A program made the translations under genes and the position numbers. Under the pieces are notes generated by a model, which was not told where the DNA came from, did no database searches, and saw only the letters and a list, made by a program, of their open reading frames with translations. From positions 1 to 54,327 of the forward strand of contig CADBZO010000008.1 in NCBI GenBank assembly GCA_902799185.1: DNA of 54,327 nucleotides, read 5' to 3'. Positions 6,221-48,972 of this stretch are shown here, piece by piece. The stretch comes from an uncultured Bacteroidales bacterium. GTDB taxonomy: Bacteria > Bacteroidota > Bacteroidia > Bacteroidales > Paludibacteraceae. Position 1 is the stretch's first letter, and each line of letters opens with the position of its first letter.

Positions 6221-6241
6221 AAATCGTAAATCGTAAATCGT
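6221..6241. repeat. 7-nt array AAATCGT x3 in the glmS leader
   Basis: Three exact copies of AAATCGT at 6221, 6228 and 6235 fill the short untranslated leader between the glmS promoter and its ATG at 6250. It belongs to the window-wide 7-nt array family. Confidence 0.85.
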
Positions 6242-6249
6242 CAATAAAG

Positions 6250-8109
6250 ATGTGTGGAATAGTTGGTTACATAGGAAAGCGCAAGGCGTATCCTATATTA
6301 ATAAAAGGTCTTCATCGCCTCGAGTACCGCGGCTACGATAGTGCCGGAGTGGCACTCATCAATGATGAGGGTCAACTCAATGTCTATAAAGCAAAAGGCA
6401 AAGTAGCGGAACTCGAAGCTTTCTGTGCAGAGAAAGATACGAACGGTTGTATCGGAATCGCGCACACGCGTTGGGCGACCCACGGGGAGCCGAACACGGT
6501 GAACGCCCATCCGCATTACTCGGAGTCCGAGCGTCTGGCGATCATCCATAACGGCATCATCGAGAACTACGCCGTTCTTAAAGCCGGCTTGCAGCAGGAG
6601 GGTTACACCTTCCGCTCCGACACGGACACCGAGGTGCTGGTGCAGCTCATCGAATATACGCAGGTGAACCGCCACGTGGACCTCAAGACGGCGGTGCAGT
6701 TAGCGCTGCAGCAGGTCATCGGCGCGTACGCCATCGCCATCCTCGATAAGGATCACCCGGACACCCTCATCGCCGCCCGCAAGGGCTCGCCGCTGGTGGT
6801 AGGTATCGGCGAGGATGAGTATTTCCTGGCTTCCGATGCAACCCCTATTGTCGAATATACGGATAAGGTGATTTATATTGAGGACGAAGAAGTAGTAGTG
6901 CTGACTGCTAATTCTCAATCCTCCATTCTCAATTATCAATTATCAACTATCAACGGAGTTGATAAGACCCCGGAGATCAAGCGGCTGGAGCTGTCGTTGA
7001 GCCAGTTGGAGAAAGGCGGCTATCCGCATTTCATGCTCAAGGAGATCTTCGAGCAGCCCCGTACGCTGACGGACTCCATGCGAGGCCGTGTGAACGTACG
7101 GCAGGATAATATCGCCCTCTCGGGCTTCATTGACAATAAAGAGCGGTTTTTGAACGCCAAGCGTATCATCATCACCGCCTGCGGCACTTCGTGGCACGCA
7201 GGATTGATTGCCATGTACGCCATCGAGGAGTTCGCCCAGATACCCGTCGAGGTGGAGTACTCGTCGGAGTTCCGTTACCGCAAGCCGGTCATCAACCAAG
7301 ACGACGTCGTCATCGCTATCTCGCAATCCGGCGAGACGGCGGACACCTTAGCGGCTATCCAGCTCGCCAAATCCAAAGGCGCGTTCATCTTCTCTATCTG
7401 CAATGTCGTGGGTGCTTCTATCCCGAGGGTGAGCGACAGCGGCTGTTATACCCATGTAGGACCGGAGATAGGCGTGGCTTCCACCAAAGCCTTCACCGCC
7501 CAAGTGACCGCACTCACCATGCTGGCGCTCTGTATCGGCCGCGAGAAAGGGACGATGAGTGAAGACAAATACCTCGCCGTCGTACGCGAGTTGGGACGTA
7601 TCCCCGACAAGATTTCGCGCGTCCTGGAACAAGATGCCCGCATCGCCGATTTTGCTAAGACGTTTACCTACGCCCAGAATTTCATTTATCTCGGCAGAGG
7701 ATATAACTACCCTGTAGCCATGGAAGGAGCACTCAAACTCAAGGAGATCTCCTATATCCATGCCGAGGGCTATCCGGCGGCGGAGATGAAACACGGACCT
7801 ATTGCCCTTATCTCGCAGGAGATGCCTGTGGTCGTGGTGGCTCCGCACTGCGGCACGTACGAGAAAGTCGTGTCGAACATCCAGGAGATCAAAGCCCGCA
7901 AGGGTAGAGTGATAGCCGTCGTCACGGAGGGGGACGAACTGGTGTCCAAGATAGCCGATTACATCATCGAGGTGCCCGAGACCGAAGAATGCCTCACGCC
8001 GCTGCTGACGGTTATCCCGCTCCAACTGTTGGCGTATCACATCGCCGTGGTCAAGGGCTGCGACGTGGACCAGCCGCGGAACCTCGCCAAATCAGTGACG
8101 GTGGAGTAA
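6250..8109 (+). CDS. glmS: Glutamine-fructose-6-phosphate aminotransferase
   Basis: Makes glucosamine-6-phosphate from fructose-6-phosphate and glutamine, the first step to UDP-GlcNAc. I place the start at 6250 because the mature enzyme needs Cys1 (MCGIVGYIGK); an upstream in-frame ATG at 6184 lies inside the promoter. This gives 619 residues. The N-terminal class II glutaminase domain (about 1-230) includes HTRWATHGEPN. Two SIS sugar-isomerase domains follow (CGTSWHAG near 315; the end LAKSVTVE is canonical). Residues about 222-235, in the linker between glutaminase and isomerase parts, are encoded by a 42-nt 7-mer array and look like an in-frame insertion. Confidence 0.97.
   Translation: MCGIVGYIGKRKAYPILIKGLHRLEYRGYDSAGVALINDEGQLNVYKAKGKVAELEAFCAEKDTNGCIGIAHTRWATHGEPNTVNAHPHYSESERLAIIHNGIIENYAVLKAGLQQEGYTFRSDTDTEVLVQLIEYTQVNRHVDLKTAVQLALQQVIGAYAIAILDKDHPDTLIAARKGSPLVVGIGEDEYFLASDATPIVEYTDKVIYIEDEEVVVLTANSQSSILNYQLSTINGVDKTPEIKRLELSLSQLEKGGYPHFMLKEIFEQPRTLTDSMRGRVNVRQDNIALSGFIDNKERFLNAKRIIITACGTSWHAGLIAMYAIEEFAQIPVEVEYSSEFRYRKPVINQDDVVIAISQSGETADTLAAIQLAKSKGAFIFSICNVVGASIPRVSDSGCYTHVGPEIGVASTKAFTAQVTALTMLALCIGREKGTMSEDKYLAVVRELGRIPDKISRVLEQDARIADFAKTFTYAQNFIYLGRGYNYPVAMEGALKLKEISYIHAEGYPAAEMKHGPIALISQEMPVVVVAPHCGTYEKVVSNIQEIKARKGRVIAVVTEGDELVSKIADYIIEVPETEECLTPLLTVIPLQLLAYHIAVVKGCDVDQPRNLAKSVTVE
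6913..6954. repeat. 7-nt array inside glmS (6 units, in frame)
   Basis: Six consecutive 7-mers: TCTCAAT, CCTCCAT, TCTCAAT, TATCAAT, TATCAAC, TATCAAC. The total of 42 nt is exactly 14 codons, so the frame is kept. It encodes a Ser/Asn/Gln/Leu-rich stretch (NSQSSILNYQLSTIN) unlike the rest of GlmS. It looks like intergenic repeat DNA that has entered the gene. Confidence 0.85.
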
Positions 8110-8158
8110 ATTAAAAATTACGAATTACGAATTACGAATTAAAAATTACAAATTATGA
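8110..8158. repeat. 7-nt array ATTACGA between glmS and ddh
   Basis: Seven units in perfect register: ATTAAAA, ATTACGA x3, ATTAAAA, ATTACAA, ATTATGA. The array starts in the glmS stop codon (last A of TAA, 8110) and its last unit contains the ATG of ddh (8155-8157). The whole intergenic space is therefore repeat. Confidence 0.9.
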
Positions 8159-9018: not shown

Positions 9019-9022
9019 TCCT

Positions 9023-9043
9023 TTGTACATTGTACATTGTACT
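9023..9043. repeat. 7-nt array TTGTACA x3 between ddh and fbp
   Basis: TTGTACA, TTGTACA, TTGTACT in register, filling the 30-bp gap between the convergent ddh and fbp genes. The same TTGTACA-type unit recurs inside mutY, about 32 kb away. Confidence 0.85.
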
Positions 9044-9048
9044 TTATT

Positions 9049-11142
9049 TTACCTTTCCCGGAAATAGCCGGTGCGGTAGGCGTGAAGGAGCTGTTCGAGC
9101 GATTGTATCTGTTCGAGCAGCTCTTTTCCTTTGTCGGTGTCTTGGATACGGATGCGGTGCCCGCTGAAATCCTGCAAGAGCGTACGGCTGTGGATGTCGC
9201 TGCCGGAGAGGATCGCCTGCTCGCGGGACTCGAACGACTCGTGCTCCACGAGCTGGATGCCATGGCTGTTATAGATGAGCGTGTAGCCGGCGATACCGGT
9301 TTTTTCCTGGTAGGGCTTGCTGAAACCGCCGTCGATGACGAACCGCTTGCCGTTAGCCCGGATAGGGGTCTCGCCTTGGATAGTACGGACGGGCACATGA
9401 CCGTTGATGATACGCCCGTTAGCGGGGTCCAGACCGAACTCCTTCAGGATATTCCGGCACACCTCTTCATCGTCCGCCAGCGTGAAATAAGCGCCCTTCT
9501 GCTCGTGGTGAGGATCTGCTTTCGACTTTCTGCTTTCGACTTTCGACGCTATAAAATACCGCTCAAAGGTAGTCATCTTATCTTTGTTGTAGAGCGGGGA
9601 GAACTCGCCTTCCCAGAGGTAAAGCAGGTAGTCCAGCGCTTCCTCTTTCTCCTTTCCCTCGCCGTAATAGGCGCGCCGGATAATCTCGTCGGTGCGGTCC
9701 ATGAGCGCTTTTCCGCGGACCCGTTTGCCGCAGACGTCCGCCTCGGCGAAGGTGCCGTCGGCGTTGAGGGGGATAGCGGCGTGGTAGAGCAGGAAACCGT
9801 TCCGCACCAGGTACAGCGAGCCGTGCTCGTAGAGCATCTTGAGGTGGCGTTGCATCTTCTCGCTCTTGCGGAACGACCGCCACAGCTGGCTCATCAGATC
9901 CTCCTCGTAGGTACTCAGCGCGTAGGGGTTCTCCGGGTCGATGGTAGGCAGGTTGGTGTCCTGCAATTGGAACACCTCTCCCTTTCCCTCCCCGCAAGGG
10001 AGGGTAATAGTGCCGTTTTGATAGTCGATTTTGTCGAGCAGAGCGCGGTGGTCCATGTGCCACTCGGGGTGACGGAGCACCGTCTGCCCCTCCAGCTTGA
10101 ACTGGATGATGGAGATAGCTTTGTGCATCTTCGCCATCAGTTGGGCGGAACGGGTCAGGCGCGGGTTGTTCTCGAAATCCTTGGTCTGCCAGATGGTACA
10201 GGGGTCGTCGCCGTAGATGGTCATGGCGAAATTGGCGAGGGGCAGGAGGTTGATGCCGTAGCCCTCCTCCAGCGTCTCGATATTGGCGTAGCGGATAGAG
10301 ACACGCAAGACGGTAGCCAGCAGGGCAAGATTTCCTGCCATGGCACCCATCCATTCGATATCATGGTTGCCCCACTGGATGTCGTAGTCGCGGACGGTGG
10401 AGAGAACGTCCAGGATCTTCGCGGCCCCGGAGCCCCTGTCGAAGATGTCCCCTACGATGTGCAGTTTGTCAATCGTGAGGGAGTGGATGAGGTAACTGAC
10501 GGCGATGATGAGCCGGTCTGCACAACCTGTCTCGATGATGGCGTCGATGACAGCGTTGTAATAGGTCTGGCGGTCTTTCTGCTCCAGATGCGACTCATGC
10601 AGCAGCTCGCCGATGATATACGCGTAGTCTTTGGGGAGCAGCCGCTGAACTTTCGAGCGGCTGTATTTGACCGTCACCGCCCGCGCCACTTCCACCGTCT
10701 GGTGCAGCCGTCTGCGGTACCAGTCCTCCAAAGTAGGCAGATTGGAAACCTGCGCATTGAGTGTGAACAGGTCTATGTATCCGCCGTTCTCCCTCTCTTG
10801 ATTCCCTCCCCTCGTGGGGAGGGCAGGGGGCGGGGTCTTTTCATAGAACCTCTTGATCAGTTCGAGACGTTCGTCCGGGTAGTAGATGAGTGCGCAAAGG
10901 GCTCTTTTCTCTTCCTCCGATATACGCTCTCCATAGACCTCATCGACTTTCTTGCGGACTACGCCGGAGGCGTTTTTGATCATGTGTATAAAAGCCATCG
11001 AAGCGCCGTGCAGGTCGCTTACGAAATGCTCGGTGCCTTTCGGCAGGGAGAGGATGGCACGCAGGTTGATCAGCTCCGTGACCACCGACTGGGCGTTGGG
11101 AAACTTGTCACTCAATAATTGTAGGTACCGTTCGTCTTGCAT
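9049..11142 (-). CDS. fbp: Fructose-1,6-bisphosphatase class III
   Basis: Gluconeogenic phosphatase of the metallophosphoesterase fold found in Firmicutes and Bacteroidetes. Metal-binding blocks are visible: VSDLHGA (about residue 40), GDIFDRGSG and GNHDIEWMGA (about 250). I place the start at 11142 (MQDERYLQLLSDKFP), because the promoter at 11163-11194 overlaps the longer ORF start at 11193. This gives 697 residues, somewhat longer than usual. The extra length is accounted for in part by three repeat-derived segments: two GC-rich palindromes (residues about 103-118 and 379-389) and a 7-nt array (about 532-542, KVESRKSKA). The gene has its own promoter and converges on ddh. Confidence 0.94.
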   Translation of the reverse strand: MQDERYLQLLSDKFPNAQSVVTELINLRAILSLPKGTEHFVSDLHGASMAFIHMIKNASGVVRKKVDEVYGERISEEEKRALCALIYYPDERLELIKRFYEKTPPPALPTRGGNQERENGGYIDLFTLNAQVSNLPTLEDWYRRRLHQTVEVARAVTVKYSRSKVQRLLPKDYAYIIGELLHESHLEQKDRQTYYNAVIDAIIETGCADRLIIAVSYLIHSLTIDKLHIVGDIFDRGSGAAKILDVLSTVRDYDIQWGNHDIEWMGAMAGNLALLATVLRVSIRYANIETLEEGYGINLLPLANFAMTIYGDDPCTIWQTKDFENNPRLTRSAQLMAKMHKAISIIQFKLEGQTVLRHPEWHMDHRALLDKIDYQNGTITLPCGEGKGEVFQLQDTNLPTIDPENPYALSTYEEDLMSQLWRSFRKSEKMQRHLKMLYEHGSLYLVRNGFLLYHAAIPLNADGTFAEADVCGKRVRGKALMDRTDEIIRRAYYGEGKEKEEALDYLLYLWEGEFSPLYNKDKMTTFERYFIASKVESRKSKADPHHEQKGAYFTLADDEEVCRNILKEFGLDPANGRIINGHVPVRTIQGETPIRANGKRFVIDGGFSKPYQEKTGIAGYTLIYNSHGIQLVEHESFESREQAILSGSDIHSRTLLQDFSGHRIRIQDTDKGKELLEQIQSLEQLLHAYRTGYFRER
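9515..9549. repeat. 7-nt array inside fbp (5 units)
   Basis: TCTGCTT, TCGACTT, TCTGCTT, TCGACTT, TCGACGC in perfect register. Read on the minus strand it encodes a run of V-E-S-R-K-S-K-A between two conserved parts of Fbp. The same TCGACTT unit occurs inside the thioesterase gene (45623-45650) and, in reverse, inside the glycosyltransferase at 38860. Confidence 0.85.
9986..10004. repeat. GC-rich palindrome inside fbp (copy 1)
   Basis: CCCTCCC, a 5-nt loop and GGGAGGG. It encodes a Leu-Pro-Cys-Gly-Glu-Gly-Lys-Gly stretch at a surface-like position. It belongs to the GC-rich palindrome family also seen at 10804, 22013, 45162 and 50399. Confidence 0.7.
10804..10823. repeat. GC-rich palindrome inside fbp (copy 2)
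   Basis: CCCTCCCC, loop TCGT, GGGGAGGG, followed by CAGGGGGCGGGG. On the minus strand it encodes a Thr-Pro-Pro-Pro-Ala-Leu-Pro-Thr-Arg-Gly-Gly run that breaks an otherwise conserved N-terminal region. Confidence 0.75.
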
Positions 11143-11162
11143 GGCAGATAGGAAATTTTGTG

Positions 11163-11194
11163 CAAAGGTACAACAAAAATACGGCATATGCAAA
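11163..11194 (-). promoter_or_regulatory. Bacteroidetes-type promoter of fbp
   Basis: On the minus strand: TTTGCATATG (-33, starting 11194), then TACCTTTG (-7, 11170-11163), spaced 24 nt. The transcript would start about 15-20 nt before the chosen ATG at 11142. Confidence 0.85.
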
Positions 11195-13465: not shown

Positions 13466-13494
13466 TCGTAAAGGGTAAATGTCTAAATCGTACA
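13466..13494. repeat. Degenerate 7-nt array before coaX
   Basis: TCGTAAA, GGGTAAA, TGTCTAAA (8 nt), TCGTACA. It fills the gap between the acyl-CoA ligase stop and the coaX start and is more degraded than the others. Confidence 0.55.
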
Positions 13495-13498: not shown

Positions 13499-14263
13499 TT
13501 GAACCTTTGTATTGACCAAGGGAACAGCCGCACGAAGGTGGCGCTGATGACGGACGAAGGGAAGATGATCAACCATTTCATCTACAAGACTTTCTCCTCT
13601 GCCGAAGTGGAGCGGCTGTTCGACCTTTATCCCATCACCGACTCGATCATTAGCTCGGTGGTGAACATAGAAGCCGCCGTGGTCAATACCCTCAGCCGCC
13701 GCTCGCAGCATTTCGTACTCTTTGACCACAATACCCCGGTTCCCGTCAAAAACGGCTACGACACGCCTTCTACCTTGGGTCAGGACCGTCTCGCCGCCGC
13801 GGTAGGCGCAAAAAGTATCTGCCCGGACGAGAACCTGCTGATCATTGACGCCGGCTCCGCCATCACTTACGACTACGTGAGTGCCGAAGGGGAATACCTG
13901 GGCGGAAACATTGCACCGGGGCTGAAGATGCGGTTCACCATCCTGGCGCGCATGACCAAGAAACTGCCGCTGGTGGAGACCGACGAGAACGAGCTGATTC
14001 CGCTCTTCGGCAGGAACACCCGTGACGCGATAGCCGCCGGAGTGATACGCGGCGTGGCGTACGAAGTGAAAGGGTACATAAGGACCTTGGCCGAGAAAGT
14101 GGCACATTTCCGGACCTTCCTCACAGGCGGCAATGCACCTTATATATTAAATAACGTCCGTACCTCGCCTACCGAGACGCGCGAACTAAGGTACGAGAAG
14201 AACCTCGTCCTCATCGGACTGAACGAGATATTGAGATACAATAAATTGAAAACTGAAAAATGA
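13499..14263 (+). CDS. coaX: Type III pantothenate kinase
   Basis: First step of CoA synthesis, phosphorylating pantothenate; ASKHA fold. Visible blocks are IDQGNSRTKVAL (residues 5-16) and IDAGSAITYDYV (about 116). The 254 residues are a normal length. The start appears to be TTG at 13499 (protein MNLCIDQGNS); an ATG five bases upstream is out of frame and meets a stop at once. The end overlaps the next gene by 4 nt (ATGA at 14260). Confidence 0.93.
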   Translation: MNLCIDQGNSRTKVALMTDEGKMINHFIYKTFSSAEVERLFDLYPITDSIISSVVNIEAAVVNTLSRRSQHFVLFDHNTPVPVKNGYDTPSTLGQDRLAAAVGAKSICPDENLLIIDAGSAITYDYVSAEGEYLGGNIAPGLKMRFTILARMTKKLPLVETDENELIPLFGRNTRDAIAAGVIRGVAYEVKGYIRTLAEKVAHFRTFLTGGNAPYILNNVRTSPTETRELRYEKNLVLIGLNEILRYNKLKTEK

Positions 14264-15510
14264 ACATTGAAAGGGCTTTATATAAAGTAGTGTTGTGGAT
14301 GGTGCTCCTGTCACCTTTCCTCTTTCACCTTTCACCACTATCCGCGCAGAATCTGACCAGTTCGCCTTATTCGCGTTACGCGTACGGCGACCTGAACGAG
14401 AACGTGCCAGCAGGATTCCGTGCCATGGGCGGAGTGGGGTTCGGTATGCGTAACAACCGCGCCATCAACCCCTCGCAGCCGGCTTCCTATACCTCTTGCG
14501 ACACGCTGACGTTTATGATGGACGTAGCGGCAAGCGCCAGCTGGAGCAGATACCAGGACGCTACGGGGCAGCGTAACAAAGCGAACGGAAACCTGGAGTA
14601 CGTCACTCTCCAGATACCCCTCTGGAAACAGTGGCTGGCACTCTCGGTAGGTCTGTTGCCCTACAGCTCGGTGGGCTATTCGATCTCGCTGGACGACGAG
14701 ACAGCCGACGGCGGGTACAACTTCAACACCGCCTACGACGGCGCGGGAAACATCAGCGAGGTGTACGGCGGTCTGAGCGCGAACATCTGCAACTGGTTCG
14801 CCTTCGGCGCTAACGTGTATTATATGTGGGGCGATCTGGCAAGAACACGTACCCTGACCTTCACCCAGTCCGGCCTCACCCCTACCGTCCAAGCGGAGAT
14901 ATTGAGTATCAGCTCCGTGCGGTTGCGCTACGGCGCACAGTTCTTCCACACTTGGGGGAAGCACACCGTGGTAGCGGGCGCGATGTACGAGAACAAAATG
15001 AAACTCCACAGCGAATATATGTTGGTAGAGACCCAGACACTCGACTCGATCCCTATCTACAAAGACGGCTGGCAGGTGCCGACAGTCTGGGGCGTAGGAG
15101 CCAGTTATAACTGGGACAAAAGACTGACGGTAGCTTTCGATTTCGAGCGCCAGCATACGTCCTCCGCGCTCTATAACGGTCTGGAGGGACATTACAGCGG
15201 CCTGCGTGACCGCAACAGATACGCCTTGGGCGTGGAGTACCGCCATAATCCCATGGGACGCAAGTACGTGGAGCGGATGATGTGGAGAGCCGGCGTGAGT
15301 ATCCAGGACGAGTACCTCGCCTCCATCGGAGCAAAGAAATACACGGCGAGCATCGGTATAGGGTTCCCCCTCTATTCCATCGGGACGACCATCAACACCA
15401 CCGTGGAATATACCCACCGCGGCAAGAAAACCGGTCTGGAGGAGAACGCCCTGCGGCTCACCATCGGCGTAGGTATTGCGGAGACCTGGTTCTTCAAACG
15501 CAAACTGTAG
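14260..15510 (+). CDS. Outer-membrane beta-barrel protein
   Basis: 416 residues with a signal peptide (hydrophobic from about residue 8, cleavage near LSAQ at 30) and then alternating aromatic/hydrophobic strands with many Tyr, Trp and Gly, ending in a terminal strand typical of porin-like barrels (VGIGVAETWFF near the end). SSPYSRYAYGD after the signal is a recurring start in a Bacteroidetes family usually found with coaX. Transported substrate unknown. It is translationally coupled to coaX. A 7-nt array (14311-14338) encodes part of the signal peptide. Confidence 0.82.
   Translation: MNIERALYKVVLWMVLLSPFLFHLSPLSAQNLTSSPYSRYAYGDLNENVPAGFRAMGGVGFGMRNNRAINPSQPASYTSCDTLTFMMDVAASASWSRYQDATGQRNKANGNLEYVTLQIPLWKQWLALSVGLLPYSSVGYSISLDDETADGGYNFNTAYDGAGNISEVYGGLSANICNWFAFGANVYYMWGDLARTRTLTFTQSGLTPTVQAEILSISSVRLRYGAQFFHTWGKHTVVAGAMYENKMKLHSEYMLVETQTLDSIPIYKDGWQVPTVWGVGASYNWDKRLTVAFDFERQHTSSALYNGLEGHYSGLRDRNRYALGVEYRHNPMGRKYVERMMWRAGVSIQDEYLASIGAKKYTASIGIGFPLYSIGTTINTTVEYTHRGKKTGLEENALRLTIGVGIAETWFFKRKL
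14311..14338. repeat. 7-nt array TCACCTT inside a signal peptide
   Basis: TCACCTT, TCCTCTT, TCACCTT, TCACCAC in register. In this frame it encodes Ser, Pro, Phe, Leu, His and Leu of the hydrophobic core of the outer-membrane protein's signal peptide. Confidence 0.8.
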
Positions 15511-15600
15511 TTTGGCACGATTATTGAGAGAGCAATCACGTGATCATGTAATCACGTCATCTCGGAAAAAGCAACAACATTAACTAAAAATAGTACGATT
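15511..15600. other. 90-bp spacer with imperfect repeats
   Basis: Contains AATCACGTGATCATGTAATC and a second AATCACGT, with a period of about 15-16 nt around a CACGTG palindrome. No -33/-7 promoter of the type used elsewhere is visible, so the TPR gene may be read from the upstream operon. Confidence 0.4.
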
Positions 15601-16998: not shown

Positions 16999-17571
16999 TT
17001 GAGAGGTCATTGGACACATAGTATCGTAGCGGGCAGCCTGGTGTTGCTCGCTACGCTTTTGCTCTCTTGCAGTCTGCGCCCCAAGCGGGTGGGGAAGATG
17101 GATATAGGTCTGGCGCGTGAGCAACTGCCTATCCTCACGACCGACACGGTCTCCACGCTTATCTCGGACTCGGGTATCACGCGTTACCGCATCGAGGCGG
17201 CGCAGTGGCTCGTCTATGACAAGACCGACACACCCTACCAGGAGTTCCCCAAGGGGATTTATCTGGAGCAGTTCAACGAGAATCTGGAGGTGCAGGCCTC
17301 GCTGCGGTCCGAGTACGCCCACTATAACGAAAACACACAGGTGTGGACGCTCCGGGGACACGTACACGCGCTGAACCTGGAGGGAGAGCAGTTCGACACG
17401 CCGGAACTGATGTGGGACCAGAAGACCCACCGCGTCTATTCCGACTCCGCGATACACATCACCCGCGAGAAAAGTATCATCGAGGGCGTGGGATTCGACT
17501 CCAACGAGCAGATGACCAAATATACGATCCTCAACCCTACGGGAATCTTCCCCGTGGATGAGGACGAATAA
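16999..17571 (+). CDS. lptC: LPS export protein LptC-like lipoprotein
   Basis: 190 residues; the start is TTG at 16999, three nt after the TPR gene's stop. The N-terminus has a hydrophobic segment and a lipobox-like LLLSC (about residue 24). The body matches the LptC/DUF1239 pattern: SGITRYRIEAAQW, then EYAHYNENTQVWTLRGHVHA (beta-jellyroll strands) and a C-terminal GVGFDSNEQMTKYTI. LptC hands lipopolysaccharide from the inner-membrane LptBFG transporter to the periplasmic bridge. Here it would be a lipoprotein or membrane-anchored. The gene stop (TAA) is the first part of a repeat array. Confidence 0.82.
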   Translation: MRGHWTHSIVAGSLVLLATLLLSCSLRPKRVGKMDIGLAREQLPILTTDTVSTLISDSGITRYRIEAAQWLVYDKTDTPYQEFPKGIYLEQFNENLEVQASLRSEYAHYNENTQVWTLRGHVHALNLEGEQFDTPELMWDQKTHRVYSDSAIHITREKSIIEGVGFDSNEQMTKYTILNPTGIFPVDEDE

Positions 17572-17610
17572 ATGACAAAATGGTAAATGACCAAATAGTA
17601 AATAGTTTTA
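17569..17610. repeat. 7/8-nt AAAT-type array between lptC and fabG
   Basis: AAAT recurs every 7-8 nt (units TAAATGA, CAAAATG, GTAAATG, ACCAAAT, AGTAAAT). It starts in the lptC stop codon and ends at the fabG ATG. It is very similar to the in-frame array inside the M20 peptidase gene (22064-22107). Confidence 0.75.
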
Positions 17611-18406: not shown

Positions 18407-18409
18407 CTT

Positions 18410-18437
18410 TCACCTTTCACCTTTCACCTTTCACCTT
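18410..18437. repeat. 7-nt array TCACCTT x4 at the end of the GH13 gene
   Basis: Four exact TCACCTT copies at 18410, 18417, 18424 and 18431. The last copy supplies the stop codon (TGA on the minus strand, 18431-18433) of the alpha-glucanase gene, giving the C-terminus ...ER. Confidence 0.9.
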
Positions 18438-33717: not shown

Positions 33718-33816
33718 CGTGAAAATGTTCCCTAAACGCAAAATTCATTTCGTGAAAATGTTCTCTGAACGCAAAATCTATTTTTACAAAATGTTCCCTA
33801 AGCGCAAAATAGTAAG
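33718..33816. repeat. Three 33-bp direct repeats upstream of the ATPase promoter
   Basis: Copies start at 33718, 33751 and 33784 with an exact 33-nt period. The conserved core is AAAATGTTCyCTrArCGCAAAAT, here read as AAAATGTTC, then CTAA or CTGA, then GCGCAAAAT or ACGCAAAAT. They abut the -33 element of the minus-strand promoter, a position suited to an operator or iteron. The rest of the spacer to 33891 shows nothing recognisable. Confidence 0.8.
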
Positions 33817-38675: not shown

Positions 38676-38696
38676 TGAATATTGCCAAAAACAAAT

Positions 38697-39758
38697 ATGG
38701 AAAAGATGAGTCAGCCAATCCACATTGTAATGACCCCGACACGCAATGAGGCGTGGGTGATACGGGCATTTTTGGAATCCACCACACGCTGGGCGGATTA
38801 TGTGATTATATGCGACCAGTTCTCAACGGATGGAACACGGGAAATCGTGAACGAGTTCGCAAGTCGCAAGTCGAAAGTCGAAAGTCAAAAGTCGAAAGCA
38901 CTTAGTCAAAAGTGTGCGGAAGTGATTCTCATTGATAACCCCAACACGGAATTCAACGAGGCGGAACGGCAGCAGATATTGGTCGCTAAGGCGCGTGAGG
39001 TAGCAGCCGGACACGACACGCTTCTCTGGGGACTGGATGCCGATGAGATATTGGCGGCTAATGCCTTTGAGACGGATGATTGGCAGAAGATCATGCATTC
39101 CAAACCCGGTGCTGTCTTTTGGTTCCAATGGGCGCAACTGACGCACGACAAGAAACATTTCTTTAATCCGCCGGCTTTTTATCCATGGCTCTTTCACGAT
39201 GACGGGGTAGAGCCGCACGGGAACTACGTGCGTGAGATGCACTCGATGCGTATTCCTTATCCGTTGGACGAGCATGACATGAGTTATGTCAAGGATTTCC
39301 GAGTGTTGCATCTTGGTCCGGCACCTCTGAACAGGGTAAAATCCAAGGAGCGGTTCTATATGTTTGTGGATTGGCAGGTGAACCACCGTCCGCCATATAC
39401 CATGGGGCGTAACTATATCGGCAGCAACGCTTATCCGAAGGAGCTGTTCGATTTGCCAGATGAATGGATCTATACAACAGAGAAAGACGGCTGGAGCTTA
39501 TGGGATAATGTGGAACTGGATGAGACGCATTGCTGGATGGACGATTATATCTATGAGCGGTTGGACAAATATCCGATGAAGACCTTAGTCAAGATTCCTC
39601 TTTGGGCACCGGAGTTCATGGAGTACTACCATCTTTCCGACCCTCGTCCGTGGTATGTAAGGCTGGTACATCGGTATCTGGAACTTACCCAACCGCATAA
39701 AAGCAACATCTGTGTGCGGGCGATAGATAAAGCACTTCGCAAGTACGTGCATTATTAA
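38697..39758 (+). CDS. Glycosyltransferase family 2-like protein
   Basis: 353 residues from ATG 38697; an upstream TTG (38682) and a further ATG (38706) are possible. HIVMTPTRNEAWVIRAFLE, ICDQFSTDGT and LLWGLDADEIL (metal site, about residue 105) fit a GT-A family 2 fold. The C-terminal half is rich in Trp, Tyr and Asp. Residues about 55-71 are encoded by a 7-nt array (Ser-Lys-Val-Glu-Ser repeats) and look inserted. It ends the polysaccharide cluster; GC content here has returned to the chromosomal level. Confidence 0.8.
   Translation: MEKMSQPIHIVMTPTRNEAWVIRAFLESTTRWADYVIICDQFSTDGTREIVNEFASRKSKVESQKSKALSQKCAEVILIDNPNTEFNEAERQQILVAKAREVAAGHDTLLWGLDADEILAANAFETDDWQKIMHSKPGAVFWFQWAQLTHDKKHFFNPPAFYPWLFHDDGVEPHGNYVREMHSMRIPYPLDEHDMSYVKDFRVLHLGPAPLNRVKSKERFYMFVDWQVNHRPPYTMGRNYIGSNAYPKELFDLPDEWIYTTEKDGWSLWDNVELDETHCWMDDYIYERLDKYPMKTLVKIPLWAPEFMEYYHLSDPRPWYVRLVHRYLELTQPHKSNICVRAIDKALRKYVHY
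38860..38908. repeat. 7-nt array inside the glycosyltransferase gene (7 units)
   Basis: CAAGTCG x2, AAAGTCG, AAAGTCA, AAAGTCG, AAAGCAC, TTAGTCA. It encodes alternating Ser/Lys/Val/Glu/Gln. The reverse complement of the unit (TCGACTT) builds the arrays in fbp and in the thioesterase gene. Confidence 0.85.
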
Positions 39759-40074: not shown

Positions 40075-40956
40075 ATGAAGATAGCTATTATCGGTGCCGG
40101 TAGTGTCGGCACAAACCTGCACCACGCTTTTGCGCTCAAAGATGTTCGTACCGAACTCATCCATGCCCGCCCTCTGACTGCGGAGCAGCCTGGCGAACCC
40201 CAAAATAACCAAACGGTAGAAGGTTTTGACGTATATATCTACGCCGTAGCGGATCAGGCGCTGAGGGAGGTGATAGCGAAGATTGATGCGCCCAAGGCCT
40301 TGCACCTGCATACCTCCGGCTCGATGCCGATAGAGGTTTTCGGAGAGGACAAACCGCATTCGGGTATCATGTATTTCTTCCAGTCCTTCAGCCGCGACGT
40401 GATGATCGATGACTGGAGCGGCATCCCTTGTTTTATCTCAGGACATAACATCGACGACATCGCCGCCATCTACTCGCTGGCGCAGACGCTCACGAGCCGT
40501 ATCTACGAGGTGAACCAGCACGACCGCGAGCGGTTGCACGTGGCGGGTGTGTTTGCCAATAACTTCTCCAACCTGATGTACCGCATCGCGGCGGAGATAC
40601 TCCGTGACACGCAGATTCCCTTTGAAGCGCTCCTGCCGCTTATTGACCGTACGGCGGAGAAAGTTCACACCCTTCCACCCAAGGAAGCTCAGACCGGCCC
40701 CGCACAACGCATGGACAGGGAAGTGATCATGAAGCATTTGGCGGTGCTGGACGGAATGAAAGACGGAGAGTTTTTCGCTTCCGATATAGAGTTTATCTAT
40801 ATGAACCTCTCGCAGATCATCCAAACCGCCCAATGGCCGGAGGACAGACGGCATTCTATCATGGAGATATTAGGTCAAGCGCTCGAAGGGTCAAGCGAGA
40901 AAGGGCATATTCGTCCAGCTCAGGCCAGGAGACGCGGAAAGTATCCGGAAGAGTAG
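40075..40956 (+). CDS. Rossmann-fold DUF2520 oxidoreductase-like protein
   Basis: 293 residues. The N-terminal Rossmann domain starts MKIAIIGAGSVGTNLHHAFA. The C-terminal helical DUF2520 domain shows HVAGVFANNFSNLMYRIA (about residue 157) and GPAQRMDREVI (about 213). Members resemble NADP-binding F420-dependent or pyrroline-5-carboxylate reductases; no substrate is known. The last 30 residues (Ser/Arg/Gly-rich) go beyond the usual family end and run 98 nt into the convergent mutY gene. Confidence 0.85.
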   Translation: MKIAIIGAGSVGTNLHHAFALKDVRTELIHARPLTAEQPGEPQNNQTVEGFDVYIYAVADQALREVIAKIDAPKALHLHTSGSMPIEVFGEDKPHSGIMYFFQSFSRDVMIDDWSGIPCFISGHNIDDIAAIYSLAQTLTSRIYEVNQHDRERLHVAGVFANNFSNLMYRIAAEILRDTQIPFEALLPLIDRTAEKVHTLPPKEAQTGPAQRMDREVIMKHLAVLDGMKDGEFFASDIEFIYMNLSQIIQTAQWPEDRRHSIMEILGQALEGSSEKGHIRPAQARRRGKYPEE

Positions 40957-41983
40957 GCAGTTCCTCTACTTTTTGTATAATGAAACGCGCGTGTATGCGC
41001 TGGTGCGAGAGCACATGCGTGAAGGAGCATACCTCCTTTGTACCTTGTACATTGTCCCTTTGTACATTACTTTGTACATCGTCCCGTTGTGCATTCTCCT
41101 GTTCTTCACAAGGAAACTCATACAGGTGGTACCAGATGTCCTTCGGGTTCTCTCTCCGCCGGATCAAAGTATATACTTTCTCCCCCTCTGTACTTTGTAC
41201 ATTGTCCCTCTGTACATAAATATGGTATTCTAGCCACCGGTCCCGCACTTTCGGCCGCGCCTTGCGGACAGGAAGCAGTTCCGCCGTGCCGTGCGCATAA
41301 CTCAGACACATAGCATTCAGCGGACACGCCGGACATTTGGTTTCGAGGAAACCGCCTGACTCCTCTTCCTTCGTACCTCGTACATCGCTCCTTCGTACAT
41401 TACTTGGCGTGCAATACAGTGCGCCGAACTCCATGATGGCGGAGTTGAACAGGCGCGGGTGCTCGCGGTCCATCAGTAGCTCTATCTCTTTGTGAAACAG
41501 TTTCTTGCCGGCGGTGGTGTCGAAGGGTTCGTCTATGTCCAGCAGCCGCGCCACTACGCGGTACACATTGCCGTCCATGGCGGGATAAGGCCGGTTATAA
41601 GCAAAAGAGGCAATCGCCCCGGCTGTGTATTCTCCTACTCCCGGCAGTGAGCGGAGATCTTCAAAACGGGTAGGGAAGGGGCTCCAACCGCGCTCTACCA
41701 CCATCTGTGCCGCCTTGTGCAGGTTGCGCGCACGGCTGTAATACCCCAGCCCTTGCCACTCCCGCAGCACTTCCGCCTCATCGGCAGCCGCCAGATTCTC
41801 CACCTTCGGCCAACGTGACACGAACCGCAGGTAATATTCCATCCCCTGCGCCACGCGGGTCTGTTGCAGGATGACCTCGCTGAGCCATATTTTGTACCCG
41901 TCCTCGGTCTCGCGCCAGGGGAGAATCCGGCGGTTACTTTCGTACCACTCGTATAACCTGTTATATATGAAAGAATTGAGCAT
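40859..41983 (-). CDS. mutY: A/G-specific adenine glycosylase
   Basis: Base-excision repair enzyme that removes A opposite 8-oxoG. It has 374 residues from ATG 41983 (MLNSFIYNRLYEWY). Catalytic features: SEVILQQTRV (Glu about residue 38), the helix-hairpin-helix LPGVGEYTAGAIASFA (about 117-132) and AMDGNVYRV (catalytic Asp about 141). The [4Fe-4S] ligands are Cys191, 217, 220 and 226. The first spacing is 25 residues where the family has 6, because a repeat array is inserted there. Two more arrays lie in the C-terminal NUDIX-like domain (41038-41098 and 41188-41216). The 3' end overlaps the DUF2520 gene by 98 nt. Confidence 0.93.
   Translation of the reverse strand: MLNSFIYNRLYEWYESNRRILPWRETEDGYKIWLSEVILQQTRVAQGMEYYLRFVSRWPKVENLAAADEAEVLREWQGLGYYSRARNLHKAAQMVVERGWSPFPTRFEDLRSLPGVGEYTAGAIASFAYNRPYPAMDGNVYRVVARLLDIDEPFDTTAGKKLFHKEIELLMDREHPRLFNSAIMEFGALYCTPSNVRRSDVRGTKEEESGGFLETKCPACPLNAMCLSYAHGTAELLPVRKARPKVRDRWLEYHIYVQRDNVQSTEGEKVYTLIRRRENPKDIWYHLYEFPCEEQENAQRDDVQSNVQRDNVQGTKEVCSFTHVLSHQRIHARFIIQKVEELPTLPDTFRVSWPELDEYALSRLTLRALDLISP
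41038..41098. repeat. TTGTACA-type array inside mutY (C-terminal domain, long)
   Basis: TTGTACC, TTGTACA, TTGTCCC, TTTGTACA, a short break, TTGTACA, TCGTCCC, then degenerate units. It encodes repeats of Asp-Asn-Val-Gln-Arg on the minus strand. Longest array in the window. Confidence 0.8.
41188..41216. repeat. TTGTACA-type array inside mutY (C-terminal domain, short)
   Basis: CTGTACT, TTGTACA, TTGTCCC, TCTGTACA. It encodes Tyr-Val-Gln-Arg-Asp-Asn-Val-Gln-Ser-Thr on the minus strand. Confidence 0.8.
41371..41400. repeat. TCGTACA-type array in the iron-sulfur loop of mutY
   Basis: TCGTACC, TCGTACA, TCGCTCC, TTCGTACA. On the minus strand it encodes Asn-Val-Arg-Arg-Ser-Asp-Val-Arg-Gly-Thr-Lys between the first and second cluster cysteines. 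Confidence 0.85.
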
Positions 41984-42024
41984 CAAAAGTACGATTTTAG
42001 GGCATAAATTTGCCAAATCGGGTA

Positions 42025-42056
42025 CAAAAGTACAAAAAAAATACGATTTTTGCAAT
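42025..42056 (-). promoter_or_regulatory. Promoter of mutY
   Basis: Minus strand: ATTGCAAA (-33, from 42056) and TACTTTTG (-7, 42032-42025), 24-nt spacing. It supports the ATG at 41983 and rules out the longer ORF start at 42055. Confidence 0.75.
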
Positions 42057-44612: not shown

Positions 44613-44617
44613 AAAAG

Positions 44618-44645: not shown

Positions 44646-44651
44646 TCTCTT

Positions 44652-44665
44652 TCACCTTTCACCTT
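44652..44665. repeat. 7-nt array TCACCTT x2 at the end of the minus-strand operon
   Basis: Two TCACCTT units, the first supplying the TGA stop (44652-44654) of the 44652 gene, with degenerate units on either side. The unit is identical to that at 18410-18437. Confidence 0.75.
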
Positions 44666-45143: not shown

Positions 45144-45161
45144 AATCTTGAATCTTTTTCT

Positions 45162-45178: not shown

Positions 45179-45188
45179 TCGGGTGGGG

Positions 45189-45938
45189 TTATTGAATAGT
45201 TATCTTTGCAGAGCAGGAAGTCTCTCCGTGACTGTTCTTCTGCTGGTACTGTACGCCGTCCGGCGCAACGAGGTAGAGCGTCTGCAACTCCTCGCCGAGC
45301 ATCGCCTCTTTCTGGTAGTTGATGTCGAGGCGCACTTTCTTGCCGTAATAGTCGGGTAGGTAAGCGTCCGTCATTGCCTGCAGGTAGCGGCAGGAGTTGC
45401 AATGCCCGTTGTAGTCGATATCCGAATACACGACTTTGTGCGCCACGCAGCCCGTCGGCTCGGGGATAGTTGTCATGCGTACGCGGCTCATCTCAATCAC
45501 CTCGCCGTCCACGCAATCCTCGAACATCGGGTCGTCGAAGATATTGACGATCTCGCGTTTCTCCATGTCCAGCACCGCCCAGACACTCTTGCATTGCCCG
45601 ATTAATATCCATTCTTCCTCTTTCGACTTTTGACTTTCGACTTTTGACTCCTTCGCATATATCCTGAAATTACGGGTGCTCAGCATATGTGCATTGCTCT
45701 CGATCCAGGTCTCGAACCGCACTCTTTGGCAGTGTGTGGGCAGTTCGTACATCTCTACGCTCAGCCGCGTCAGAATCCATGTCAGTCCGCGCGGATGAAG
45801 CGCCGCAATGCCGAATCCCAACTCGTCTGCTACCGTCCCTGCTACCTCCAGCAGGTAATTCTCCAGGTTGAACAGCCGCAACTTCTTCTCGCCATCCACC
45901 TCCTGGTACTTAATCTCGTATTCGTAATTATATTTCAT
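45189..45938 (-). CDS. Acyl-ACP thioesterase (paralogue 1)
   Basis: 249 residues with two hot-dog folds. N-terminal VDGEKKLRLFNLENYLLEVA and GLTWILTRLSVEMYELPTHC; C-terminal KVVYSDIDYNGHCNSCRYLQ, the motif of the second hot-dog domain. It releases fatty acids from acyl carrier protein; chain length unknown. A 7-nt array encodes residues about 97-106 (Ser-Lys-Val-Glu-Ser). Its start codon lies in the repeat array 45935-45962. Confidence 0.87.
   Translation of the reverse strand: MKYNYEYEIKYQEVDGEKKLRLFNLENYLLEVAGTVADELGFGIAALHPRGLTWILTRLSVEMYELPTHCQRVRFETWIESNAHMLSTRNFRIYAKESKVESQKSKEEEWILIGQCKSVWAVLDMEKREIVNIFDDPMFEDCVDGEVIEMSRVRMTTIPEPTGCVAHKVVYSDIDYNGHCNSCRYLQAMTDAYLPDYYGKKVRLDINYQKEAMLGEELQTLYLVAPDGVQYQQKNSHGETSCSAKITIQ
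45623..45650. repeat. 7-nt array inside thioesterase gene 1 (4 units)
   Basis: TCGACTT, TTGACTT, TCGACTT, TTGACTC in register. The encoded Glu-Ser-Lys-Val-Glu-Ser-Gln-Lys-Ser-Lys run is nearly identical to that in the glycosyltransferase at 38860. Confidence 0.85.
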
Positions 45939-45962
45939 CTTTCATCTTTCACCTTTCACCTT
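45935..45962. repeat. 7-nt array at the S9 peptidase / thioesterase junction
   Basis: TCATCTT x2 and TCACCTT x2. On the minus strand it holds both the TGA stop of the S9 peptidase gene (45956-45958) and the ATG of the thioesterase gene (45936-45938), so the whole junction is repeat. Confidence 0.9.
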
Positions 45963-48118
45963 TCTTTCAACCAGCGGTCCAGCCATCCGCGGAACTCTCT
46001 TTGCCAGAGGATGCCGTTCTGGGGCTTGAGCACCCAGTGGTTCTCGTCGGGGAAGATGAGCAGTTCCGCCGGCACGCCGCGCATCTTCGCTGCGTCGAAT
46101 GCCGCCATAGCCTGGTTGGCTAAGATGCGGTAGTCTTTCTCGCCGTGGATGCAGAGTATCGGGGTGTCCCATTTGTCCACAAACTTATGGGGGCTGTTGG
46201 CGAACGTGCGCTGTGCTGTCTTGTTGTCTTTGTCCCAGTATGCGCCGCCCATATCCCAGTTGGCGAACCATTTCTCTTCGGTCTCCAGATACTGCATCTC
46301 TAAGTTGAAGATACCGTCGTGGGCGATGAACGCTTTGAACCGTCCGTCGTGGTGACCGGCAATCCAATAGACGCTGAAGCCGCCGAAGGAGGCGCCTACA
46401 CAGCCCAGATGGTCTTTGTCCACATAGGGCTCGGTGCAGAACTCGTCGATGGCAGTGAAATAATCCTTCATGCACTGGCCTCCGTAGTCGCCGGAGATTT
46501 GTTCGTTCCACGCCATGCCGAAGCCCGGCAGTCCGCGGCGGTTAGGTGCTACAATGATATAATCGCCGGCACTCATCATCATGAAGTTCCACCGGAACGA
46601 CCAGAACTGGCTTACGGGGCTTTGCGGACCTCCCTCGCAATAGAGGATCGTCGGGTATTTCTTTGACGGGTCGAAATGCGGCGGGTAGATGATCCATGTC
46701 AGCATATCTTTTCCGTCGGTCGTCTTCTGCCATCTCGGCTCCACCGTGGAGCGTTCTATCTGCTTGTAGATATTGTCGTTCTCGCTTGTGAGTTTGTCCA
46801 ACAGTTGGTTGTAGGTGTCAAACGGCTGGTCGTACCACACCTCAGTATGGGCGTAATCGCCGTTGTCCTTGTGCAGCCACTCGCCGACATCCATGCGGTA
46901 TATCTCGTTCGCCTGACGCATGGAGTGGCCTAATACAAAGGCATAATGGTCGCTCACGTCTCCCAACCCCAGGTCGAACTGCCCTTCCGTCAGACGGCTG
47001 ACATAACCGTTGAGGTTCACATGGTAGAGTTGTACGGTAGCGTGCCAGCAGGCGGTGAATAGCAGCGAACTGTCGTTATACCAGGCGTACTCATCCACAT
47101 TCGTGTCCATCGTACGGCTGAGGAAACGTTTTTCGCCGGTCTTGAGGTTCATCACCATGAGGCGGTTCTCGTCGCTCTCATAGCCGTCGCGCTCCATGGA
47201 CTGCCAGGCTATCCACTCGCCGGAAGGCGAATAAGAGGGGTTGGTGTCGTAGCCTCCGTTCGGAGCAGTGATGTTCTTATGTGTGCGGGTGCGTAAGTCA
47301 TAGAGGTAAATGTCGCTGTTGGTGGAAACGGCGTAGTCGAGACCTGTCTTCTTGCGACAGGTATAGGCTATTTCCTCATTGTTCGGATTCCATGCCAATT
47401 GCTCTACACCGCCGAACGGTTTCATCGGGCACTCAAATGCTGTGCCATCCAGGATATTTACATATCCGCCAATCTTGGCGGATTTGATGCGCTCGCCTTC
47501 GCCGTAATACTCGGTCAGCAGATCGCATACAAACGGCTGCGGAGCGGTTTCGGTCCACTCGTCCCAGTGTTTGTACATCAGGTCCTCATGCATATGACCC
47601 GTAGCCAAAGGCAGATCGGGGTATTTGTCTGCAGTGGTAGGAATGGTCTTCACCTGTTTGATGAGGATGACCTTGTCGCGCATCGGCGAGAGCAAGAAGC
47701 CCTCTACATCCTCGGCACCCACAACTTCTACCTCCTCTTTGTCACGGCGTAGATACAGCTTGCCTCCTTTGAGGTATGCCAAGCAACCGCTGTTGCCGAA
47801 CCAGGCCGGCTCGGAGCCCACGAACTCATCCTCTACCGCCATGTTCTCAAAGGGGTTGCAGATACGGATCCAAGTAGTGCTTCTATTCTCCGCTACGGAG
47901 TAGTAACTCACGGTATAGGCCAGCAGACCGGTCTCGATATCGCTCTTCACGCTACCGATACGTCCCATTGCCCAGAGTCCTTCGGGTGTCAGCCGTCCGC
48001 CTTCAATCGTGATCTGAGGCTTCGTAACCGGTGCTTTGAAAGTGTCAGTGTCCTCTTTTGCGCAACTCGCGCCAAGTATTGTCACGGCTGCCATAATAAA
48101 TATCTTCCAGTTTTTCAT
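45956..48118 (-). CDS. S9 family prolyl-oligopeptidase-like lipoprotein
   Basis: 720 residues. A lipoprotein signal (lipobox ILGASC, about 14-19) suggests attachment to the envelope. An N-terminal beta-propeller is followed by an alpha/beta-hydrolase domain with the nucleophile in GASFGGFSVYW (Ser about residue 577), the Asp in HGEKDYRI and the His in ENHWV near the C-terminus. It resembles dipeptidyl aminopeptidases/acylaminoacyl peptidases. Substrate unknown. Confidence 0.9.
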   Translation of the reverse strand: MKNWKIFIMAAVTILGASCAKEDTDTFKAPVTKPQITIEGGRLTPEGLWAMGRIGSVKSDIETGLLAYTVSYYSVAENRSTTWIRICNPFENMAVEDEFVGSEPAWFGNSGCLAYLKGGKLYLRRDKEEVEVVGAEDVEGFLLSPMRDKVILIKQVKTIPTTADKYPDLPLATGHMHEDLMYKHWDEWTETAPQPFVCDLLTEYYGEGERIKSAKIGGYVNILDGTAFECPMKPFGGVEQLAWNPNNEEIAYTCRKKTGLDYAVSTNSDIYLYDLRTRTHKNITAPNGGYDTNPSYSPSGEWIAWQSMERDGYESDENRLMVMNLKTGEKRFLSRTMDTNVDEYAWYNDSSLLFTACWHATVQLYHVNLNGYVSRLTEGQFDLGLGDVSDHYAFVLGHSMRQANEIYRMDVGEWLHKDNGDYAHTEVWYDQPFDTYNQLLDKLTSENDNIYKQIERSTVEPRWQKTTDGKDMLTWIIYPPHFDPSKKYPTILYCEGGPQSPVSQFWSFRWNFMMMSAGDYIIVAPNRRGLPGFGMAWNEQISGDYGGQCMKDYFTAIDEFCTEPYVDKDHLGCVGASFGGFSVYWIAGHHDGRFKAFIAHDGIFNLEMQYLETEEKWFANWDMGGAYWDKDNKTAQRTFANSPHKFVDKWDTPILCIHGEKDYRILANQAMAAFDAAKMRGVPAELLIFPDENHWVLKPQNGILWQREFRGWLDRWLKER

Positions 48119-48124
48119 TTAATG

Positions 48125-48145
48125 TCAAATTTCAAATCTCAATTA
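48125..48145. repeat. 7-nt array TCAAATT at the SDR / S9 peptidase junction
   Basis: TCAAATT, TCAAATC, TCAATTA. The last unit carries the TAA stop of the SDR gene (48143-48145). The gap between the two genes is only 24 bp. Confidence 0.8.
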
Positions 48146-48916
48146 CACGCACGTATATCCGCCGTCCACGGGCAGAGCCACGCCGGTCACGTACCGCGAA
48201 GCGTCTGCGGCGAGGAAACAAACGGCGCTGTCCAATTCGCCCTCGTGGCCGTACCGCTCCATCGGGATGACGGTCTTGGCATAGTTGGCGAAATAGTCGG
48301 ACTCGAGTGTCTCTTTGGTCAGCGGGGTGATGAAATAGCCCGGGCAGATAGCATTGACGGTGATGCCGTACTTGCCCCATTCGGCAGCGAGGGCACGGGT
48401 CATGTTCACTACGCCGCCTTTGGCAGCGTGGTACGGCGAAGCGGGCGCAATCTTATTGCCCACCAGACCGTACATGGAGGCGATATTGATGATGCGTCCG
48501 TACTTATTCGGGATCATGGTCTTTTTGGCTACGGCGCGCGCTACGCGGAACGAACCGAAGAGGTCGATCTGCATCTCGTTCTCAAACTGAGCATCGGTGA
48601 TATCCTCCGCGGGAGCTACGGCACCCGTACCGGCGTTGTTCACCACGATGTCAATGCGTCCGAAATGCGCAATCGCCTCGTCCACCATTTTCTCTACCGC
48701 TTCGGTGTTAGTGATGTCGCATTGAATCGGTAGCACCTCTACGCCGAATGTTTTCTCGATCTCGTTTTTCACTTCTACGAGTTTCTCGTATCGGCGGGCG
48801 ATGATGACGAGTTTGCTACCTTTGGCAGCGAGGGCTTCCGCCATCTGCACGCCTAATCCTCCGGAGCAGCCGGTCACGAGAGCAACCCGCCCGCTCAAAT
48901 CAAAAATGTCTGTCAT
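48143..48916 (-). CDS. Short-chain dehydrogenase/reductase
   Basis: 257 residues from ATG 48916 (MTDIFDLSGRVALVTG); an upstream ATG at 48934 is possible but adds little. Cofactor motif TGCSGGLG, NNAG, and the catalytic YHAAK (Tyr about residue 159) are present, and GGYTCV ends the protein. It resembles gluconate 5-dehydrogenase or 3-oxoacyl-ACP reductase types; the substrate cannot be fixed. Between two thioesterase genes it may act on lipids, but that is inference. Confidence 0.85.
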   Translation of the reverse strand: MTDIFDLSGRVALVTGCSGGLGVQMAEALAAKGSKLVIIARRYEKLVEVKNEIEKTFGVEVLPIQCDITNTEAVEKMVDEAIAHFGRIDIVVNNAGTGAVAPAEDITDAQFENEMQIDLFGSFRVARAVAKKTMIPNKYGRIINIASMYGLVGNKIAPASPYHAAKGGVVNMTRALAAEWGKYGITVNAICPGYFITPLTKETLESDYFANYAKTVIPMERYGHEGELDSAVCFLAADASRYVTGVALPVDGGYTCV

Positions 48917-48930
48917 ATTATTTATAAGTT

Positions 48931-48972
48931 TCAAATTTCAAATGTCAAATGTCAAATCTCAGATGTCAAATC
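48931..48972. repeat. 7-nt array TCAAATG at the thioesterase 2 / SDR junction
   Basis: Six units: TCAAATT, TCAAATG x2, TCAAATC, TCAGATG, TCAAATC. The last unit supplies the TGA stop (48966-48968) of the thioesterase gene. Confidence 0.9.

Follow-up and report, generated by a model that had tools for sequence, protein, structure and literature searches.

The window analysed here is a whole 54,327-nt stretch (bases 1–54327 of a 150-kb contig, CADBZO010000008.1) of the draft genome of an uncultured rumen Paludibacteraceae bacterium (GCA_902799185.1; 2.43 Mb, 55 contigs, 86.7% complete; G000 below). Its subject is the short arrays of tandem 7-nt units, with unit sequences that change from site to site, that recur along it. 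A sequence-only reading had described them as window-wide, with a strict 7-nt period (sometimes 8). Tandem Repeats Finder (TRF) was run on the window with a minimum score of 30, and genes were called with a simple open reading frame (ORF) caller that over-extends starts. No known RNA family or tRNA was found in the window. The nearest named relatives are rumen and gut metagenome-assembled genomes (MAGs) labelled Paludibacteraceae or Bacteroidales. The closest among the matches listed is RUG12032 (G073), a sister MAG that was assembled independently and whose DNA is about 90–95% identical to that of G000. The sister loci compared amount to 44 kb and cover the window arrays except 55–152, 367, 22064, 38857 and 42022.

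TRF returned period-7 rows at 55–76, at 367–399 and at a series of sites that begins at glmS. In the glmS 5' untranslated region (UTR), an AAATCGT array (6221–6245, plus strand) lies between the promoter-like pair TTGCATAATT..TAATTTTGCA, of the Bacteroidetes type, and a Met-Cys start at 6250; the sister has about one unit and is 13 nt shorter as aligned. This is one of the arrays that count as in-ORF merely through an over-extended ORF start. Within the glmS coding sequence, a TCAATTA/TCAATTC array (6910–6954, plus; 6910–6953 in TRF) occupies the GATase-SIS linker, where the sister carries an AAAGTCG array. An AATTACG array (8108–8155, plus) fills the space between the glmS stop and the start of a diaminopimelate dehydrogenase-like gene (dapdh) and differs from that of the sister by one substitution, while a TTGTACA array between convergent gene ends (9023–9042, plus) is 14 nt (two units) shorter in the sister. 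The fructose-1,6-bisphosphatase gene (9049–11193) contains an AAAGTCG-type array (9515–9547, minus) that is conserved in the sister. No TRF row corresponds to 13466–13494, a place named by the sequence-only reading and unchanged or nearly so in the sister. At the junction of ORFs 13499–14263 and 14260–15510 lies an AAATTGA array (14243–14272, plus) that had not been listed before and is not recognisable in the sister; the CTTTCAC-type array near the 5' end of the second ORF (14307–14336, plus) has no array counterpart there. A period-8 array at 15534–15561, likewise new to the list, is unchanged or nearly so. Over the called start of a short-chain dehydrogenase ORF (17580–18350) there is a mixed 7/8-nt array of AAATGAC/AAATAGT (17569–17603, plus), to which TRF assigns a period of 15 (7 + 8) and which is identical in the sister. 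At the 3' end of gene 18431–19714, 4.9 copies of CTTTCAC (18407–18440, minus) adjoin a terminator-like hairpin (by eye), and the sister has a period-8 TCTAGAAA array instead.

The second half of the series starts with a TCGAAAG array (38857–38898, plus, by TRF) in a glycosyltransferase-like gene (38682–39758). The next gene to carry arrays is mutY (40859–42055), a call supported by the Pfam domains HhH-GPD and NUDIX_4. It contains a TTGTACA/TTGTCCC array that is absent from the sister (41038–41099, minus; 41038–41065 in TRF) and a TCGTACA array (41371–41400, minus) that lies within a 51-nt (17-residue) in-frame gain relative to the sister. Three places had been ascribed to mutY; these two are inside, and the third is probably 42022–42037, a period-8 array upstream of the likely mutY start. 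A CTTTCAC array adjoining a terminator-like hairpin (44649–44665, plus; hairpin by eye) is not found in the sister. Another (45933–45964, minus) runs from the stop of an S9 peptidase gene to the start of the acyl-ACP thioesterase gene (45189–45938), and between the same flanks the sister has a period-8 TAATTACG-like array. The thioesterase gene itself holds an AAAGTCG array (45620–45649, minus), conserved in the sister with one substitution. A TCAAATT/TCAAATC array (48121–48142, minus), identical in the sister, spans the interval from a dehydrogenase stop (48143) to an S9 peptidase start (48118), and gene 48143–48934 has at its 5' junction a TCAAATG array (48929–48968, minus; 48931–48971 in TRF) that is 28 nt (four units) shorter in the sister. 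The end of a DciA-like gene (52206–52601) carries a TGATTTA array (52599–52620, plus), identical in the sister and, like a period-11 array at 221–260, additional to the earlier list. Two listed places, 128–152 and 22064–22107, are indeed arrays, but with period 8 by TRF.

Array abundance was measured at a stricter score that allows mismatches and that 10 window arrays pass. In a sample of 254 kb (the window plus 10 stretches chosen without regard to repeats), we counted 49 period-7 arrays (1.93 per 10 kb), against 0, 0, 3, 4, 6, 1 and 10 arrays of periods 4, 5, 6, 8, 9, 10 and 11; the 39 period-14 arrays are a harmonic of 7. By extrapolation, the whole genome would hold about 470 period-7 arrays. 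Exact runs in the window number 13 for period 7 (0.2 in first-order Markov shuffles), three for period 14 and a single one for each of periods 10 and 11; periods 4, 5, 6, 8 and 9 have none. A larger own-genome sample of 453 kb carries a bias, since 10 of the 20 stretches added to the window were selected for a (CTTTCAC)3 match. It gave 107 arrays with the mismatch-tolerant score and 0 in one shuffle, and its exact runs comprise 96 of period 7, 0 of period 5, three each of periods 6 and 8, nine of period 11 and 40 of period 14. These 107 arrays fall into 37 unit classes. The genus sample (60 genomes, 1.11 Mb) contains 125 period-7 arrays versus 1, 1, 7, 29, 15, 6 and 49 for periods 4, 5, 6, 8, 9, 10 and 11. 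Its densities range from 0 to 7.5 per 10 kb (samples up to 20 kb), and 21 of the 60 relatives yielded no array in samples of 6–20 kb; 12 genomes from other families of the order yielded two period-7 arrays in 290 kb. One relative, G032, is an exception to the dominance of 7 nt, with two period-7, three period-6, three period-8 and four period-12 arrays in 100 kb. A lineage using period 8 only (G032, G044, G046, G048, G006) was considered and rejected: period-8 arrays are outnumbered in four of these genomes, and G032 is poor in arrays of every period. Within one genome, period-8 units too turn up repeatedly: G046 has AAATCTTC and CATAACGA at several sites, and TCTTCAAA occurs at the glmS gap of G058.

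These counts, and the identity of several arrays in the independently assembled sister, establish that the arrays are real, enriched at period 7 over shuffled sequence and present genome-wide with a common period and a varying unit, as the sequence-only reading had maintained. Its word "strict" has to be relaxed, since 7 dominates but period 8 occurs as a minority and can replace it at one and the same site.

The sister comparison extends to a second region (L015). There we observed a difference of 42 nt plus a one-step unit change, a difference of 21 nt within an ORF, unit swaps (AAAGTCG versus ACAATGT in an ORF, GGTGAAA versus AAAGTCG), one leader equal in length with unit variants, and two absent arrays. 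Array lengths in close relatives, which the sequence-only reading had proposed to compare, differ mostly by whole units (14, 21, 28 and 42 nt, and 8 nt for one period-8 array), the 13 nt at 6221 being the exception. Other pairs, at the S9 locus, behaved likewise. A count over 11 S9-locus pairs and four G000/G073 segments, in which both directions were counted so that instances are not independent, comprised 62 alignable array instances, 23 unalignable ones being excluded. The partner had the same unit and length in 13, the same unit at another length in one and a one-step unit in six; in the others it had a unit at least two steps apart (9), another period (6) or no array at threshold (27, some being shortened arrays). 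Thus, where the unit was neither the same nor one step apart, the partner carried another array in 15 of 42 instances. The biased own sample averages 0.29 arrays per called gene, nearly the same proportion. Independent gain within a restricted set of tolerant sites may therefore be enough, and the figure does not call for replacement in trans.

The same sites vary across the genus. Between the glmS stop and the dapdh start, the empty state is only TAA-T-ATG or TAA-AT-ATG in three species, and in 10 of 30 loci, that of G000 among them, the stop is followed by a 7- or 8-nt array, mostly with different units and with period 8 in three of the ten (by eye). The GlmS linker holds a period-7 array at a score of at least 10 in 7 of 30 loci, again with different units, and is short instead in about half of the species (by eye). 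MutY loops vary likewise: the loop of G000 reads VRRSDVRGTKEEESGG, and among the matches listed (at most 12) other species have VESQKSKVES and GERLKVKGER. In the L202/L213 S9-locus alignment, by eye, two sites show an array in one species facing an array-like stretch of unrelated unit, below threshold, in its own sister species; the paired stretches are exactly equal in length (24 and 30 nt), by chance or through a length constraint.

Arrays are concentrated at gene ends. They lie over or within 60 nt downstream of a stop codon in 52 of 107 own cases (biased sample) and 93 of 181 genus cases, compared with 0.067 and 0.062, respectively, of random positions within 60 nt of a stop. Another 30 own and 48 genus arrays are deep inside called ORFs, their hosts including GlmS (between its two domains), acyl-ACP thioesterase, fructose-bisphosphatase, the glycosyltransferase-like protein and MutY. 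Inside enzymes the sense reading is stop-free and in frame. Orientation in ORFs is sense for AAAGTCG (7/7) and AATGTAC (4/4); AAAGTCG translates as KVESRKS, and peptides of this kind are found in the GlmS and MutY proteins of relatives. Near stops, 10 of 11 AAAGGTG arrays have the sense orientation and other units are mixed (AATTCTC, for example, 2 sense and 3 antisense). The sense strand of arrays beside stops is A-rich and C-poor (own A 0.42 and C 0.07, versus 0.31 and 0.22 in array-free gaps; genus A 0.38 and C 0.11). We rejected the idea that period 7 is favoured for placing stops in all frames, because every period that is not a multiple of three has that effect; by eye, the units in the glmS-dapdh gap occur with and without sense stops.

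Units are shared within G000 more than with other genomes. Two arrays of G000 have the same unit with a probability of 0.045, 14 times the letter-permuted expectation of 0.003, whereas sharing with six other genomes (8–24 arrays each) is 0–0.019. Within-genome sharing in G015, G062, G044 and G046 is 0.020–0.075 against permuted means of 0.002–0.008, although G044 and G046 only reach the permuted maximum; G006 falls inside the permuted range and G048 shares none. Across 30 chosen genomes, (ATTACGA)3 has 34 overlapping matches in G000, 11 in the sister and 16 in G046, being present in 6 genomes and in none of the other 24. The corresponding figures for (CTTTCAC)3 are 28 matches in G000 and two overlapping ones (one site) in the sister, with presence in 12 genomes and absence from 18. 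The array-rich G062 has neither repeat and the array-rich G015 only (CTTTCAC)3. We infer that units spread within a lineage and are lost in others. The sequence-only reading had preferred a fixed-step process to the spread of one element, an opposition that the data do not support in that form: largely species-specific units recur within the genome far above chance, and some seem to spread among sites.

The explanation that we consider somewhat better than evenly supported is that these are heptanucleotide, less often octanucleotide, long simple sequence repeats (SSRs) in an unusually active rumen and gut genus of Paludibacteraceae, produced by slipped copying, filtered by selection and supplemented by some copying between arrays. 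Tandem 7-nt units in excess of chance, 7 nt as the commonest long unit and changes by whole units (apart from 6221) are features that the arrays here share with such repeats. The sharp period, together with length differences in whole units, favours slipped copying whose step of 7–8 nt is intrinsic, most simply slipped-strand copying in replication or repair, the step being presumably fixed by the copying machinery. New arrays would arise genome-wide and most would be removed by selection; the nearly neutral survivors would sit around stop codons (where an array can provide a new stop), in 5' UTRs, at junctions between genes and, if stop-free and in frame, in enzyme loops. The unit dictionary points to some copying between arrays, most likely by template switching, which would carry units to other sites and give each species its own set. 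Among the 27 partner sites without an array, 10 have a copy of the unit within one mismatch (5.1 expected) and four an exact copy (0.4 expected).

Several observations fit this explanation poorly. No copy within one mismatch is present at 17 of these 27 sites (two of the 17 being shorter than one unit), so that local and non-local origins are both possible, and plain local slippage fails to explain a unit that recurs at many unrelated sites yet is absent from array-rich relatives. High density is scattered on a 48-row tree, where it takes 8 changes (shuffled mean 9.4); this speaks against a single array-rich clade and indicates no single genetic cause. None of the enzymes sought in 61 genomes could be linked to the step. 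Mismatch-repair loss was rejected, mutS1 being matched in 60 genomes (56 above cut-off) and the lone miss being 54% complete. DinB, in 48 of 61, bears no relation to array density by eye, and Ku end joining occurs in 0 of 61. RVT_1 is absent from this genome at 86.7% completeness and present in 14 of 61 genus members, other reverse transcriptase families not having been searched; the RNA-guided process suggested by the sequence-only reading is without support, and reverse-transcriptase or telomerase-like repeat addition was rejected.

The dictionaries could also mean that arrays are built beforehand and inserted in trans where DNA breaks or forks stall, and that slippage only adjusts their length afterwards, a possibility that we regard as real but doubtful. 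Short tandem DNA pasted at breaks has a parallel in interstitial telomere-type repeats. Unit sharing confined largely to one genome, the richness of (ATTACGA)3 and (CTTTCAC)3 here and their absence from many genomes, the 51-nt mutY gain with no seed seen in the sister and the many seedless empty sites would all be expected. However, no inserting machinery emerged from the RVT_1 and Ku searches, units in one array differ from each other at one or two bases, as copies of a single fixed template would not, and no target duplications stood out by eye, no systematic search having been made. The 15/42 figure may also be explained by independent gain. A fuller version, in which a fixed-step process without RVT_1 and Ku writes ready-made 7–8 nt arrays from the species dictionary into gene junctions and enzyme loops, each site staying in place as its unit is swapped in trans, is less likely still; if true, it would amount to a cellular repeat-writing activity that uses neither.

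Selection on the unit itself, with arrays as translation-initiation leaders or protein-binding sites, would accommodate the marked clustering of arrays around stops, at starts and in 5' UTRs, as well as the A-rich, C-poor sense strand beside stops. It also has a precedent in the TAACTGA arrays just upstream of Beggiatoaceae starts, proposed to be translational regulators (PMC4679880). Orthologous sites with a different unit, another period or no array, arrays in enzymes and at convergent gene ends, and the 21 relatives without arrays in their samples nevertheless make it improbable. Least credible of all is an artefact of low-complexity AT-rich spacers, ORF miscalling or misassembly: it would be favoured by the draft state of this MAG, by the AT-richness of the units and by arrays that are in-ORF only through over-extension, such as that at 6221, but shuffling abolishes the arrays, several are identical in the sister assembly, and those of GlmS and MutY lie within continuous enzymes matched by Pfam.

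Heptanucleotides dominate long SSRs in many bacteria (Mrazek 2007, as told in PMC4679880 and PMC4692102), and Mrazek, Guo and Shah (2007, as told in PMC4679880) put forward slippage in which the polymerase contacts 7 nt. Mrazek and Huang 2014 (Table 2 of PMC4060949) give a Bacteroidetes median of 0.75 for pattern 7n3, other simple-sequence patterns in that table being 0 or negative. The favoured unit length is the same here; what differs is the density of about 2 arrays per 10 kb, the dozens of units, the replacement of one unit by another between sister species, the occurrence of period 7 in one sister where the other has period 8, and the in-frame insertion of arrays into core enzymes. The TAACTGA repeats, known from cyanobacteria, marine Beggiatoaceae and some Bacteroidetes, come in two to six copies and mostly lie immediately before start codons. 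They resemble our arrays in unit length and placement, and two close Cyanothece strains differ mostly in 7-nt increments; they have one dominant unit, and related heptamers are not repeated (PMC4679880), unlike the 37 classes found here. The GGGNATC/GGGGAYT heptamers of Xanthomonas and Nostoc form one G-rich family with G-quadruplex potential (PMC4692102), whereas units here are mostly A/T-rich; two Xanthomonas genomes have 186 and 183 of these G-rich repeats, and many lie between genes. PMC4692102 also cites the short tandemly repeated repetitive (STRR) sequences of Calothrix PCC7601, which are tandem heptanucleotides too, but with only three sequences reported. Borg tandem repeats (PMC9879509) share independent origin, fast evolution, A enrichment, positions between and inside genes and the creation of new protein segments; their units are perfect and in ORFs have lengths divisible by three, whereas here 7 nt is kept in ORFs too and gives a 7-residue repeat per three units.

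Rickettsia palindromic elements are conserved, palindromic, in-frame mobile elements of about 100–150 nt; by eye, our alignments show 7–8 nt units and no shared longer element, and an element of that kind was rejected. The bacterial heptamer excess and the slippage idea are known, while the fast unit turnover at fixed sites, the species-specific dictionaries and the in-frame enzyme insertions make these arrays a novel form of it; no title or opening abstract on heptamer repeats in bacteria, Bacteroidetes or Paludibacteraceae dealt with fixed-site unit turnover, in a search that left subscription literature largely outside its coverage. Why bacteria prefer 7 nt is a question raised by the 2007 survey, with no settled answer in the literature consulted. 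With more than 60 species, sister pairs in mid-change and in-frame arrays in core enzymes, including the repair enzyme MutY, the genus makes step length, rate and source of new units measurable, and the arrays show a route for new loops into conserved proteins.

A second array class has period 11, the second-ranking period, and varied units (ACCGCGATATG, CGACGGTCAAA, CTAGACCATAC). It numbers 17 arrays in the own sample and 63 in genus samples, of which 35 lie away from stops and also not deep within ORFs; examples are window 221–260, L015 9800–9851, L016 183–214, L019 1079–1123, L021 18142–18173 and many genus loci. The L015 array overlaps a dispersed element of about 95 bp (9802–9895) with about eight further partial or full copies in the sister at 78–88% identity. 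In window 55–152, GGGTGAC units face their reverse complement GTCACCC, and the two arrays could form a hairpin. A 33-nt tandem repeat of 2.8 copies lies between divergent genes at 33718–33810.

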